Shown here: one piece after another, positions 8,498 to 54,126 of the stretch | How the letters are laid out: each line of letters starts with the position of its first letter | Position numbering within the stretch: position 1 is the first letter of the stretch | NCBI RefSeq assembly: GCF_000020485.1 | Contig: NC_011899.1 | Coordinates: forward strand, 2,140,501 to 2,204,500 | Source: Halothermothrix orenii H 168 | GTDB taxonomy: Bacteria > Bacillota > Halanaerobiia > Halanaerobiales > Halothermotrichaceae | DNA: 64,000 nt | Direction: 5' to 3' | Notes under the pieces: model-generated | What the model saw: the letters and a program-made list of their open reading frames with translations, nothing else | What the model was told of the DNA's origin: nothing | Databases searched by the model: none | Program-made: the position numbers and the translations under genes

Positions 8498-9580
8498 ATG
8501 AAAGTTTCTAATTTTAACGAACTTTATAACAAATTAATTATCGATTTCTTAAAAAACCTGGAATTATCAGATGTAAAAACCGAAACTACTGGAAAACACG
8601 CCAAATCAAACACAACAACTCCTGACTTTCCGGTAAGGGTTGATAAAATATCTATACCCACTGATATAAAAAATATATTAAAGGGTTTAGACCCCTTACT
8701 CCAGGAAAAGTTAATAAAATACTGGATTAACCATAAACTCCCTCTGGACATCAAACTTTTGACCACATTTATTAAATTAATTAAAAAAACAAGACCCGGA
8801 GCAAATCTCAATACCATGGTTAAAAGCTTTGCTCTGTTAGTTAAAAATAAATTACCCCTGGCTTCGGAGCTCTTCAAAGGGTTAATACTCTCATATAATT
8901 CCAGGGAATCAAATTCTAGCGAATCTTATGTATTTCAAATGGGGGGATTAAGGGATCAACTCCCCCGGAAGTTAACCAGAGAGTTCCTTTTTTATCATCA
9001 TGATTCCCCGACCCGGATAGAAGCTAAATTAAGTAATTATACAGAAAAACTTAACGAACTATTACAAACCCTTGAAAATTTAAAGGAAAATAACAGTCAA
9101 TATAAAAAGCTGTTTAACCAGATTACTGGAAATAAGTTAATTAACCTGACCTCAAATGAAAACCTCCTGTTATCCCTTGAATTACCACTGACCTTTCCAG
9201 ATCAAAACCGGCCTTTGCCCCTGTACTGTCAGATCTGGAACCAGCCCCGGTCAAAAAAAGGAGGTAACCAAAATGGAAAAAATAAATCATACCAGATTGT
9301 TTTCTTAATTGAACTACCCCGTAAAGGACTGATTAAAGCCCAGATTATATATAAATCTGGCCACATAAAAAGCTCATTCCAGACCGGTTCTAACCGCACC
9401 GCCGAACTCATCAAACAAAATCTACCACAGCTTATTACCAGGTTAGAAGAAAATGGTTTTTCAATAGACCCACCCGTAGTAGAAACCATTAAAGAACACA
9501 GATTTGATTCCGGGTATAAAAAGTCCGGAACCAAATCGATAACTGAAAACTTCAGGGGTCATTTTGACTTAAGAATCTAA
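8498..9580 (+). CDS. Flagellar hook-length control-like protein (FliK/YlqG type)
   Basis: About 360 residues. The N-terminal two thirds are lysine- and leucine-rich helical sequence. The C-terminal part (about residues 225-335) is a compact beta-rich region with LLLSLELPLTF, YQIVFLIELPRKGLIKAQIIY and a closing helix, resembling the FliK C-terminal domain that talks to FlhB. The ATG at 8498 is preferred because the GGTGAT just upstream matches the ribosome-binding site of the next gene; a GTG at 8486 lies inside this site. In Bacillus, ylqG precedes ylqH, and here the next gene is the YlqH-like FhlB homolog, which supports the call. The function is inferred from family and context. Confidence 0.65.
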   Translation: MKVSNFNELYNKLIIDFLKNLELSDVKTETTGKHAKSNTTTPDFPVRVDKISIPTDIKNILKGLDPLLQEKLIKYWINHKLPLDIKLLTTFIKLIKKTRPGANLNTMVKSFALLVKNKLPLASELFKGLILSYNSRESNSSESYVFQMGGLRDQLPRKLTREFLFYHHDSPTRIEAKLSNYTEKLNELLQTLENLKENNSQYKKLFNQITGNKLINLTSNENLLLSLELPLTFPDQNRPLPLYCQIWNQPRSKKGGNQNGKNKSYQIVFLIELPRKGLIKAQIIYKSGHIKSSFQTGSNRTAELIKQNLPQLITRLEENGFSIDPPVVETIKEHRFDSGYKKSGTKSITENFRGHFDLRI

Positions 9581-18663: not shown

Positions 18664-19341
18664 CTAAACCGATCTTATTAACTCTGGAGAGGGGGTATTT
18701 TTTAAGAAATTCACCAGCTCCCTCTCATTATTAATCTCTCCATCTATAATAATACCACCCCTGGCAACATCCTCTATCTGATGAAAGTCAGATCCTGATA
18801 TTAACTTGAGCTCATTATTAATAGCAAACTGGTAGGCCAGATCATTATAGGAATCATGCCTGGGGTTACCATTATAGACTTCTATTCCATCAATTAAAGA
18901 AGGATTGACCGGATTGAGTCCCGGTCTGAAGGGATGGGCCTGATAGACAAGAATATCATTATCATTAACCAATGTTTTAAAGTCTTTAAGAGTTAATGTA
19001 AAGAGCCTGGGATTATTTATCAAAAATTCCGGGGTTATACCATAGACCAGAAAGTCATTGGGACTCTCTTCAAAGGTTAATTCTATTCCCAGAAAAACCT
19101 TTAGACCGAGCTCCCTACCTCTATTGAAGGCTGTACTATAACCAGTAAGATACCTTTTTATCTGTTCTTCCCAGCCCAGTGATTCTATATTATCAAAAAA
19201 ACCCCGTTTATAATGGTCAGTAATTACCACACCATTATACCCGGCTTCCTTATATAATTCAACCATCTGTTCTGCCCTTACCTTGCCACACCTGCTTGTC
19301 TCTGCTGTATGAACATGCATATCGAGTTTGAATCCTGACAT
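18664..19341 (-). CDS. PHP-domain phosphoesterase-like protein
   Basis: Metal-dependent hydrolase fold, 225 residues. The HxH pair (DMHVHTAETS), the ITDHYKRG motif, a conserved glutamate (GIELTFEE), YQAHPFRPG and the final GSDFHQ give a full set of metal ligands. It resembles PHP proteins fused to or near polymerases and histidinol phosphatases, but the substrate is not known. It is transcribed with the YkgJ-like gene upstream (40-base gap) and converges with the DsrE gene. Confidence 0.85.
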   Translation of the reverse strand: MSGFKLDMHVHTAETSRCGKVRAEQMVELYKEAGYNGVVITDHYKRGFFDNIESLGWEEQIKRYLTGYSTAFNRGRELGLKVFLGIELTFEESPNDFLVYGITPEFLINNPRLFTLTLKDFKTLVNDNDILVYQAHPFRPGLNPVNPSLIDGIEVYNGNPRHDSYNDLAYQFAINNELKLISGSDFHQIEDVARGGIIIDGEINNERELVNFLKNTPSPELIRSV

Positions 19342-19381: not shown

Positions 19382-19894
19382 TTACCACAATTCAGCCTTC
19401 AAATCCTCTATTACATTATATACAATGGGACAAATATAGGTGTTATCAATCATTTCCAGAAACCTGTGGTTAAACATTTTTTTTGTTAAATGTGGATATG
19501 ACCGGCAGGAATCGGGTCTTACAGAATAAATTGTACAGGTATTACCATCTAAAAAGGGACAGCTCTCACCCTTTAAAGCAAAACCGGTTTGCTGCTCTCT
19601 AGATACATATTTATTCTTAAAATCATTAATACTTATCCCCAGTTGCTCAGCAATTCTTTTTATATCATACCTGGTAAATCTGGGACTTAAATTCCTACAA
19701 CAATTACCACAATTCCGGCAATCAAAAGAAGAAAAATACTTATTATTCAACTCCCGGACCAGGTTGTCCACTTTCCAGGGATTACAACCCCTGATAAAAA
19801 TCCTGAATTCCCGGTTTTCATCCTCTTTTTGCCGGGCCAGTTCCTCAAGCCTTTTCTGATTAATAACCATGTTAATAAGTTTTAACACTCCCAC
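19382..19894 (-). CDS. YkgJ-family cysteine cluster (putative iron-sulfur) protein
   Basis: About 160-170 residues. Cysteines come in the pattern CRNCGNCC, then CPFLDGNTCTIYSVRPDSCRSYP, the hallmark of the CxxCxxCC family (UPF0153), thought to bind zinc or an iron-sulfur cluster. Some relatives act in flagellin or other methylation, but no role can be assigned here. The start is uncertain: GTG at 19894 overlaps the GGTGGGAG site, GTG at 19888 is very close to it, and ATG at 19870 is distant. A set of DnaA boxes lies about 95-125 bases upstream. Confidence 0.85.
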   Translation of the reverse strand: MGVLKLINMVINQKRLEELARQKEDENREFRIFIRGCNPWKVDNLVRELNNKYFSSFDCRNCGNCCRNLSPRFTRYDIKRIAEQLGISINDFKNKYVSREQQTGFALKGESCPFLDGNTCTIYSVRPDSCRSYPHLTKKMFNHRFLEMIDNTYICPIVYNVIEDLKAELW

Positions 19895-19987
19895 CTGAAA
19901 TATGATAAAAACTTAAATAAATTCTGATATCCAGTTAAAGATATATTAAACCATTTTTAGTAAAATGTCAACAAAACTGAGAGTTTT

Positions 19988-20018
19988 TGTGGATAACTTG
20001 TGGACAAATTGTGGATTT
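19988..20018 (+). promoter_or_regulatory. Cluster A: three DnaA boxes in 11-bp phase
   Basis: TGTGGATAA (perfect box), TGTGGACAA and TGTGGATTT begin at 19988, 19999 and 20010, so the spacing is exactly 11 bases, about one helix turn. The cluster lies between the YkgJ-like gene and the terminator of the surface lipoprotein gene. A second cluster with the same design is at 23238. Confidence 0.75.
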
Positions 20019-20037
20019 ACTGTTAATAATTAAAAAG

Positions 20038-20072
20038 TAACAAAGAGGCCCCGGGACAGGACCTCTTTGTTA
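20038..20072 (-). terminator. Terminator of the surface lipoprotein gene
   Basis: Perfect 11-base arms TAACAAAGAGG and CCTCTTTGTTA. On the minus strand ACTTTTTAATT follows. It stands 50 bases past the stop codon. Confidence 0.9.
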
Positions 20073-20122
20073 CAATTTATACTTAATTTAGCTCTGACAC
20101 ACAAAAATGTAAACCATTTTTC

Positions 20123-22489
20123 TTATTTAGTGACAGCATTAACACTGGCAGGAGTCATAATATAATCAGTCAGGATGTCCAGGGTTACTGACCCTGATTC
20201 TGGTATAACTGCATTGGGTTCACCTGGTATATCGGGGGGAGTTACTCCATAATAACCCATTGCCTCTACATACTCAGAGTTATTATCCAGGTCTACCATG
20301 GCATAGACATAATAGGTCCCTGGAGTAACAGAAGCAGAATAACTGATCTGGTCTTTATTAGTATACTCCCCGGCTATAAATGCCTCCTGTCCATTCCCGC
20401 TATCAGTATCAGTATCAATAAACACAATATAAAACCCTGTTGCCACTTCCGGTAATGTTATAGTTCCATTAACGTTAAGCTCCTTTGTGGCATACATATC
20501 AACATTAAAGTTAACTTTGCCGGTATCAGGAACACTTGCCGTAGGGGATGTCGGTAAGGTTCCGTCAGAGGCCTGGCCATGCACTCCTTCATAAATACCT
20601 GATTTTGCATAAATATAATAGGTTCCCGGGGCAACATTGTCAAAACGGAAAGGTGCCTCAGTAGTTGCTGTCTCCACAAAATAGTCAAAACAATCAACAT
20701 ACCCATCGGTTTCATCCAGGTTGTCATCCAGGAAGACAGTATACTCCTGGTAAGATACAGATTCCGGGAAGGTTAAAGTCCCTTTAACATTATAGGGGTC
20801 ACTTACTTCTACTGTAACCGTACCTGTAGCCGTTTCCCCAAAGGGATCACTTACCGTATAAGTGAAGGAATCTGTACACGGACTGGTGGGGGCTTCATAC
20901 ATTAAATCCCCATACTCATCTACATAAACTAAACCATAAGTGGGCTGGGTAAAGCTATCCAGGGTCAGTGAATCACCGTCAGGATCACTCGTATTATACT
21001 CATAGTCAATCCATATTGTACCATAAACATTAGCAGTTTCCACAATGTCCCCAGCTACTGGAGGGGCATTTTCGGTAACTACTTCGATAAATACCGTACC
21101 TGTATCTGATCCATTACCATCACTAACTATATAATCAAACTGATCTGAACCGGTATAATCAGTATCAGGAGTATAGGTTATCGTATAATCAGGGTTAACT
21201 GTTACACTACCATGGACTGGGTTTGTGCTTATACTAACCTGTAAGGTTTCAAATTCAGCATCATAGTCATTTTCAAGGACATTTATCGTAAGAGGGTTAT
21301 TCATCATGGCATTGACATTATCATCATAAGCCTCAGGTGGGTCATTTACAGGTAATATTTCAACAGTAACTGTCGCTGAATTTGAAATATTATTGTTACT
21401 ATCAACAATGGTGTAAGCAAAGGATGCATTTCCATGGTAGTCAGTATATGGGGTAAAGGTGACCGTCCCATCATTATTATTAATGACAATCCCCATAGTA
21501 GCTGAATCATTAATTTCATAAACACTTATGGGGTCCCCTTCCGGGTCAGTATCATTGGCCAGAAGGTCAATTGTGGTTGTAGTGTCTTCGTCCATAGTAA
21601 TAGAGTCATCGTTAGCTGTAGGAGCAGCATTACCACTACCAATGGTAACATTTACAGTAGCCTCAGCTGTTAACTCACCATCACTTACAGTATAAGTAAA
21701 GCTGTCAGAACCTGTATAACCATTGTCAGGAGTGTAGGTTATAGTTCCATCACCATTTTTTACAGCTGTTCCATTTGATGGAGCAGTAACACTCTGTAAG
21801 GTCAGGGTATCCCCGTCTACATCAGTATCATTAGCCAGGACATCAACTACTACTGGTTGATCTGCAGTAGTGGTTACATTATCATCTTCTGCAAGGGGGG
21901 CATTATTATCACTGCTACCAACAGTTACTGTAATTATGGCTTCTGTCTGAAGGTTTTTATTATCAGCTATTATATAAGTAAAGGTATCTGTTCCGCTAAA
22001 AGCAGGATCAGGGACATACTTTATTGTCTCTCCATCAACTATTGAGGCCCTACCATGGGAAGGTTGTCCCACTTTAATTATTTCCAGGGACTGTTTTTCA
22101 GGGTCGGAATCATTTGTAAGGGGTTTAATGGTTACCGGTGTGCCAACATCTGTTTCAACTGAATCATCCTGGGCTACCGGAGGCTGATTTTCGCTGATAA
22201 AAATTGCCTTGATAGATTTATTACTATCCATGACAATCTTGTTTTCAACTACATCCTTTCCATCAGGGCCACCCCAGCTATCAAACAACCAGCCTTAATC
22301 AGGACTGGCCTTAAGACTTACAGTTGTCCCTTCAACGAACTTCTGACCACTTGAAGGGTTAACCTGTCCCTTGCCCTCAATTTCAATTGTAAGGGTGTAT
22401 TTCTTATCAGATAGTATGTCATTATTACTACAACCAACCATCGCTACCAACATTACCAGTACTGCTATTATAATGGTTTTTTTAAACAT
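20123..22489 (-). pseudogene. Ig/cadherin-repeat surface lipoprotein gene interrupted by an in-frame TAA
   Basis: The frame starts at 22489 with a lipoprotein signal peptide (lipobox VAMVGC) and runs 64 codons into an InlB-B/bacterial-repeat domain (TLTIEIEGKGQVNPSSG...SLKASPD). There TAA at 22295-22297 stops it. The same frame continues at once with GWLFDSWGGPDG, the second half of the same domain, so only the stop separates the parts. Five tandem Ig-like repeats of about 95 residues follow, each opening with a DD pair and containing NDTDxDGD-type acidic, probably calcium-binding motifs and FTYTVSDG. Two C-terminal beta domains (PGTYYIYA in each) complete 788 codons. If the stop is real, the surface protein is lost unless read through. 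A sequencing error is the alternative. Confidence 0.85.
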
Positions 22490-22692
22490 TATCTTTCCCC
22501 CCTAACATAGAATAAATTAAAAACTAAATAATTTATAGATATTTTTTTATATTAAACTATATATTAAACTATATATTTAGTTAACTTTAACAGGTATGAA
22601 TCAACCACACAATAAGGATTAATAAATCGTCTTATAATTTAATAACACCGGGGAATAATAATAACAGAAACCAAATTAGATTGGAGGTAATT

Positions 22693-22857
22693 ATGGAATA
22701 CGATAAAAAGAAAAAAAATAACAAGAAAAACCAGAAAAATAAAACCGATGAAGAGTTTTTGGTACAATCCCCCAGTATAAACCCAGATGACATAGAAATA
22801 GATGATGAGATATCTCCAGATGAACGATTAAGAAAGAAAAAGAAAGAAGACCATTAA
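22693..22857 (+). CDS. Small highly charged protein of unknown function
   Basis: A 54-residue frame with a strong GGAGGT site seven bases before its ATG and a terminator-like hairpin just after the stop. The first third is almost pure lysine and asparagine (MEYDKKKKNNKKNQ), the middle is acidic (PDDIEIDDEISPDE), and the end is basic again (RLRKKKKEDH). No family is recognised. It is divergent from the surface lipoprotein gene. The RBS and terminator make it likely to be a real gene. Confidence 0.6.
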   Translation: MEYDKKKKNNKKNQKNKTDEEFLVQSPSINPDDIEIDDEISPDERLRKKKKEDH

Positions 22858-22869
22858 TTTAACTTTCAA

Positions 22870-22897
22870 GAGGAATCCTTGCTTCAGGGGATTCCTC
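22870..22897 (+). terminator. Terminator of the small charged-protein gene
   Basis: Arms GAGGAATCC and GGATTCCTC with a ten-base loop, then ATTCTTTATCTT, 12 bases behind the stop codon. Confidence 0.75.
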
Positions 22898-23357
22898 ATT
22901 CTTTATCTTATCCCGTCTTTAACTACATAACTTAATTTAAATAACCATTTATTTAGAGATAACTAAAAAATTATATCTAGAGTTAGTTATACAAGTTCTC
23001 ATAATTATCTACTGTTCAGTAACTTTTGAGTGAAAATTACATAAGTTTTATCCATTGACTCTTATATTATCTTTAATGTTTTAATTTGTCTGTTAAGTTT
23101 AAAAATCATAATTTAGTTAAACAGTTGGTTAAATTATATACTTTTTTTAATAACCTGTCAAGATTTGCTGAAATAAATACGTTTTTCTTTTATATAAAGT
23201 ATATATAAAATTTAATGTATTTTATTTCTCTAAAATTTGTGGATAACCTGTGGGAAAAATGTGGAATCATTGTTATTAACCTGTTAATAAAAAGTTTAAA
23301 TGGTATTTTTAAAATATAATTACTCTTAAATAACAGATTTTTAACGTTTAACCTGAC
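22898..23357. other. Gene-free AT-rich region
   Basis: About 460 bases without a gene in any frame. The only clear signal is the second DnaA-box cluster at 23238-23268. No terminator for the DUF6544 gene was found in it. Confidence 0.5.
23238..23268 (+). promoter_or_regulatory. Cluster B: three DnaA-like boxes in 11-bp phase
   Basis: TGTGGATAA (perfect box), TGTGGGAAA and TGTGGAATC begin at 23238, 23249 and 23260, again exactly 11 bases apart and in the same orientation as cluster A. Both clusters are followed by a similar TGTTAATAA-like AT-rich sequence. Confidence 0.65.
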
Positions 23358-53817: not shown

Positions 53818-54126
53818 TTACTCCTCTATCTGGTTTTCTAACAACTGCAAACAAAAGAGACAGTCACCTTTTCTTTTTTCTCCAAAACTTAAATGACAGA
53901 CATGATAGCCTTCATTATAAAGATGGATAAGATTTGAATAACCTTCCCGGGATTGCTCATTCTTTCTGTCAAAAACAATCTTCTTCAACTCTTCATTCTC
54001 TTCCCGGAGAGTCTGATTCTCTTTATATAAATTGTAGGTTATATCCTTTAACTTCTGAAACTTAAAAGATAATTCCTCTATCTGTTCCTGAAAATAGGCC
54101 AGGGCACTCAGTATTTCCTCGTCCAT
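53818..54126 (-). CDS. yabA: Replication initiation control protein YabA
   Basis: 102 residues. A leucine-zipper coiled coil (about residues 5-55) is followed by a C-terminal zinc-binding domain with His and Cys ligands in HVCHLSFGEKRKGDCLFCLQLL (trimmed here by two at either end in effect; key residues His-x-Cys-His and Cys-x-x-Cys). YabA binds DnaA and the sliding clamp and restrains initiation. ATG at 54126 overlaps the ricT stop (TGATG). Its presence is of interest beside the two DnaA-box clusters at 20.0 and 23.2 kb. Confidence 0.93.
   Translation of the reverse strand: MDEEILSALAYFQEQIEELSFKFQKLKDITYNLYKENQTLREENEELKKIVFDRKNEQSREGYSNLIHLYNEGYHVCHLSFGEKRKGDCLFCLQLLENQIEE

Follow-up and report, generated by a model that had tools for sequence, protein, structure and literature searches.

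Clusters of DnaA boxes that lie away from the replication origin have been described in Bacillus subtilis, where removal of six such extra-oriC clusters leads to early initiation (PMC5295017; PMC13220808), and where YabA limits DnaA oligomers (PMC5295017). DnaA of the same organism also acts on transcription, as an activator of sda and as a repressor of several further genes (PMC4447404). The Escherichia coli locus datA is IHF-dependent and about 1 kb long (PMC5295017). E. coli DnaA favors pairs of boxes 2-3 bp apart and loses binding at wider spacing (PMC11317965), and Thermotoga DnaA binds same-direction boxes best when these are separated by 2 bp (PMC10316083). Here, we describe two clusters of DnaA-box-like sites in Halothermothrix orenii H 168, for which the reading that we favor, at a probability of roughly 0.55, is that they are extra-oriC DnaA-box clusters of the oligomerization type, forming a DnaA sink and perhaps also modulating promoters. 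The chromosome is a single contig of 2,578,146 bp, and the window, meaning the whole 64-kb stretch of DNA that was analyzed, corresponds to bases 2140501-2204500. Positions are those of the window unless stated otherwise.

Two phased arrays of DnaA boxes

Pattern searches and an array scan of the sequence define the two clusters as follows:

19988..20029, plus strand: cluster 1, four DnaA-box-like sites in 11-bp phase
23238..23290, plus strand: cluster 2, five DnaA-box-like sites in 11-bp phase

The sites of cluster 1 are, in order, TGTGGATAA (19988), TGTGGACAA (19999), TGTGGATTT (20010) and TGTTAATAA (20021), which in 11-bp steps reads TGTGGATAAct TGTGGACAAat TGTGGATTTac TGTTAATAA. Those of cluster 2 are TGTGGATAA (23238), TGTGGGAAA (23249), TGTGGAATC (23260), TGTTATTAA (23271) and TGTTAATAA (23282), or TGTGGATAAcc TGTGGGAAAaa TGTGGAATCat TGTTATTAAcc TGTTAATAA. 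Both arrays are head-to-tail and in exact register, leading from a perfect TGTGGATAA box through two further TGTGG boxes to weak TGTTA(A/T)TAA sites, one in cluster 1 (20021) and two in cluster 2 (23271 and 23282). A preliminary description of this DNA had placed TGTGG boxes at 19988/19999/20010 and 23238/23249/23260, with the first of each three being perfect. These triplets are real and are found in the sequence at exactly those starts, but the count of three boxes per cluster was too low, as there are four and five phased sites. Given that TGTTAWTAA occurs at only about 1e-4 per base in window DNA, the three phased copies are not accidental. The arrays are 3.25 kb apart with a lipoprotein gene in between. 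Duplication of a larger segment as the source of the pair was rejected because only the 44-bp array is common to both clusters, the flanks beyond it being unrelated.

Genome-wide counts were obtained by pattern searches of the genome. The pattern TGTGG-N6-TGTGG-N6-TGTGG matches twice in the whole chromosome, both times at these clusters, compared with approximately 0.0015 matches expected from the frequency of TGTGG in the window and none for the reversed pattern. The two clusters therefore exceed chance, as had been proposed, and triplets of this kind are not common across the genome; in both clusters, several DnaA boxes are grouped far beyond chance and outside oriC. When 398 genomes of the phylum are searched with a stricter form, TGTGGATAANNTGTGGN6TGTGG, six contain it (reversed control, 0), and H. 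orenii is the only one with two copies. Lone perfect DnaA boxes are not rare, since the genome has 51, including seven upstream of dnaA, and therefore it is the arrangement that stands out. In the window, the array score at a pitch of 11 bp is 56 and 50 for the two clusters, whereas it does not exceed 36.5 at pitches of 9, 10, 12 and 13 bp; this score is hand-weighted, with weights picked once the boxes were known, such that only comparisons between pitches are meaningful. A loose search for three TGTK sites at pitch 11 finds, genome-wide, oriC (122-147), both clusters and two sites that are apparently due to chance. A near-match at 473 kb was set aside, as it contains a single box only and lies in seemingly coding DNA. 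A mixed pattern gave 11 matches in genome contigs, of which an estimated seven or so would be expected by chance, and the match in Fuchsiella was the one taken further.

Two other groups of boxes were seen in these searches. At genome positions 1237411-1237614 (locus L099, 7412-7615), about opposite the origin, three perfect DnaA boxes form a loose group in AT-rich DNA adjoining a resolvase-like gene. In genome G034 (contig C42; locus L031, 2940-3003), a 3-kb contig has six perfect TTATCCACA boxes in exact 11-bp register. Its genes resemble, by eye, those of filamentous phages, although a putative Zot-like protein encoded there has no Pfam match. This array, on so short a contig with phage-like genes, was set aside.

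Relation to origin arrays

The dnaA gene is located at genome positions 593-1984, placing the clusters 414-418 kb away around the circle, in agreement with the earlier statement that neither is next to dnaA or dnaN. The phased TGTK sites of H. orenii oriC, at 122-147, are upstream of dnaA. Across 30 dnaA-downstream regions of the order, the best array scores 31.7 on average at pitch 11, whereas other pitches give means of 22.6-25.9 and shuffled sequences about 19; judged by these scores, the 11-bp pitch is a mark of the intergenic DNA between dnaA and dnaN in this order. An equivalent TGTGG triplet is found in this intergenic region (oriC2) of Fuchsiella alkaliacetigena and of another member of the class (G197), in the same 11-bp register as in H. 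orenii, and the Fuchsiella array ends in TGTTAATAA, as do the H. orenii clusters. However, the Fuchsiella and G197 arrays are inside oriC and are accompanied by DnaA-trios, neither of which is true of the H. orenii clusters. Outside oriC, there are similar triplets, one close to a pyruvate:ferredoxin oxidoreductase gene in G008 and one after thiamine genes in G025 (gene names assigned by eye from translations). The 56-bp array of G025 is 84% identical to that of Fuchsiella oriC2. No such triplet was found in most genomes of the order. Because the clusters lack a conserved position and the triplet is absent from most of the order, any role is not a general one. By sequence, the arrays share the native origin design of the order and have no fixed chromosomal place between genomes. 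The variable position would be consistent with binding by another protein that recognizes TGTGG/TGTTA repeats at 11-bp intervals, or with arrays that have no function, but we regard this as quite improbable, since consensus, pitch and orientation are those of the oriC arrays and the rarity is far past chance.

Given this resemblance, could the clusters themselves be an origin? The preliminary description had listed origin remnants among the possibilities, and two arrays on either side of a gene recall oriC1 and oriC2 around dnaA, as a dormant, accessory or remnant bipartite origin might. The boxes form ordered arrays, as in origins with a basal unwinding system, the arrays are of oriC type, and the surroundings of cluster 2 are 80-84% A+T. 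Nevertheless, a DnaA-trio is needed for unwinding, and neither cluster is accompanied by four or more trios in a row, compared with runs of six in oriC2 of Fuchsiella and G197. This test is weaker for H. orenii because its native oriC2, in the dnaA-dnaN region, has a shorter run (TTACTACTA / TATTACTACTATAAGTACT) that is itself under the four-trio threshold; by inspection, neither strong box is followed by anything resembling TTACTACTA. To the left and right of the clusters, GC skew is -0.15 and -0.20, respectively, and hence is negative on both sides with no lasting switch, and the location is not that of dnaA-dnaN. In addition, the flanks of the two clusters are unrelated, and the published origin of H. 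orenii is upstream of dnaA (PMC2626281). The missing trio and skew switch indicate that the clusters are not origins, and an origin of any of these kinds is very unlikely.

A related idea, which we consider unlikely, is that the pair is a decoy origin, in which ATP-DnaA would join the two arrays by looping of the 3.25 kb between them, without unwinding, and so set the timing of initiation in a Firmicute. The arrangement of two arrays about a gene would again mirror that of oriC1 and oriC2 about dnaA, and Hda and SeqA are assumed, from B. subtilis, to be absent.

Promoters and neighboring genes

The following features surround the arrays:

18664..19341, minus strand: PHP-domain gene, probably in the same transcription unit as the YkgJ-like gene
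19382..19894, minus strand: CxxCxxCC (YkgJ-like) gene, the nearest one downstream of the cluster 1 promoter
19943..19971, minus strand: sigma-70-type promoter TTGACA-N17-TAATAT, 16 bp past the perfect box of cluster 1 and directed away from the array
20123..22490, minus strand: surface lipoprotein gene between the clusters, with signal peptide and Big_9/cadherin-like repeats
22693..22857, plus strand: small lysine-rich ORF of 54 aa, between cluster 2 and the lipoprotein gene
23133..23161, minus strand: perfect sigma-70 consensus promoter TTGACA-N17-TATAAT, 76 bp past the perfect box of cluster 2

The window has five promoters that match the consensus perfectly, among them the one at cluster 2, which is directed towards the lipoprotein gene, about 640 bp from its start. 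This gene is flanked by the clusters as previously described, and is interrupted by an in-frame TAA (22295-22297) that splits it after the signal peptide part (ASPD*GWLFDSWGG), for which a pseudogene, a sequencing error and a recent mutation are alternative explanations. A strong hairpin followed by a T run on the minus strand (20037-20075) ends beside cluster 1 and is the probable terminator of the lipoprotein gene. The 54-aa ORF belongs to no Pfam family, and no credible Rfam match to an RNA element was detected at 17-27 kb of the window.

DnaA boxes are thus located at promoters: read on the minus strand, each array is a short way upstream of a strong sigma-70-type promoter (TTGACA-N17), which its strong box faces. 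This raises the possibility, which we hold as tentative, that the arrays serve primarily in transcription control, with DnaA activating or repressing the YkgJ/PHP unit and the transcript that runs toward the lipoprotein gene, thereby tying both to the replication cycle. The behavior of B. subtilis DnaA at sda and the genes that it represses offers a precedent, and in three other genomes of the phylum (G174, G127 and G048), a longer 11-bp array immediately precedes a sigma-like HTH gene and divIC. However, promoters are to be expected in intergenic DNA anyway, the cluster 2 promoter is far from the start of a gene that contains a stop codon, and the arrays of G008 and G025 adjoin gene ends with no obvious promoter, by inspection. 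Furthermore, none of five clear YkgJ-like orthologues from other genera of the order has a box array upstream. A conserved link between DnaA and YkgJ was therefore rejected (0 of 5), and no conserved regulon is seen.

The arrays in G127 (locus L097, 9147-9270), G048 (L098, about 9300-9410) and G174 (L095, 9436-9512) consist of seven to ten sites in 11-bp phase and are located just after yabQ, the small HTH gene downstream of them being sigma-70-region-4-like. TGTA-type sites are followed by TGTGGATAA-type sites and, in G127 and G048, by TGTGGTTAA-type sites. The three arrays have the look of a DnaA array that is conserved at an operon for cell division/sporulation.

A candidate DnaA sink compared with known systems

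The DnaA of H. orenii has a full, intact C-terminal DNA-binding domain, and the window also encodes a regulator of DnaA oligomerization, as the preliminary description had pointed out:

about 53818-54126, minus strand: yabA (Pfam YabA, 4e-23), not physically linked to the clusters

From the sequence, it is very likely that DnaA binds the arrays, moderately likely that the arrays sequester it, and possible that they affect the adjacent promoters. Of the roles first suggested, namely titration, control site and origin remnant, the first two are well supported, to the extent that sequence allows, and the last is weakened by the trio, skew, position and flanks described above. In the reading that we favor, DnaA would anchor on the perfect box of each array, extend head-to-tail over the same-direction sites 2 bp apart, seeding ATP-DnaA oligomers, and stop at the weak TGTTAWTAA sites, of which each array has one or two. 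Such a complex, having no DnaA-trio, would probably be unable to open DNA, and so the array would mainly hold DnaA. The arrays would then be a chromosomal sink for DnaA and would delay initiation at oriC in the manner of the six clusters of B. subtilis acting together, although nine sites in two clusters may be a small sink relative to the 51 perfect boxes of the genome. A second role may be modulation of the promoter past the strong box, which is 16 bp away in cluster 1 and 76 bp away in cluster 2.

If DnaA does bind, these would be, within a limited literature search, the earliest sites in the Halanaerobiales to be named as candidate sinks or control sites for DnaA, and of unusually clean design, with a single pitch, a single orientation and a strong-to-weak order. 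With such simple natural arrays, one could ask whether the spacing is by itself enough for DnaA to oligomerize off the origin, and whether DnaA sinks are of consequence in Firmicutes. The rule of 11-bp arrays is also a precise search pattern for DnaA targets elsewhere, and already points to the array adjacent to divIC.

Among known systems, E. coli datA and DARS are similar in being non-origin DnaA-box loci, and the role in DnaA control proposed here is theirs, but their box arrangement differs from that of the H. orenii clusters. Boxes 3-5 of the Thermotoga maritima oriC and the left DOR of E. coli consist of close, same-direction boxes for head-to-tail ATP-DnaA oligomers (PMC10316083), and the Thermotoga boxes are 2 bp apart, as in H. 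orenii, whereas the H. orenii clusters are off the origin and have no DUE or trio. The extra-oriC clusters of B. subtilis (Okumura 2012, as given in PMC5295017 and PMC13220808) are alike in lying away from oriC in a host with YabA. In H. orenii, by comparison, only two tight clusters were found, 3.25 kb apart, and these follow a strict 11-bp, same-direction, strong-to-weak arrangement; the likeness to B. subtilis concerns location and host. Extra-oriC DnaA-box clusters are already known from B. subtilis, to which the H. orenii pair, as read from its sequence, adds a genuine and well-defined case.
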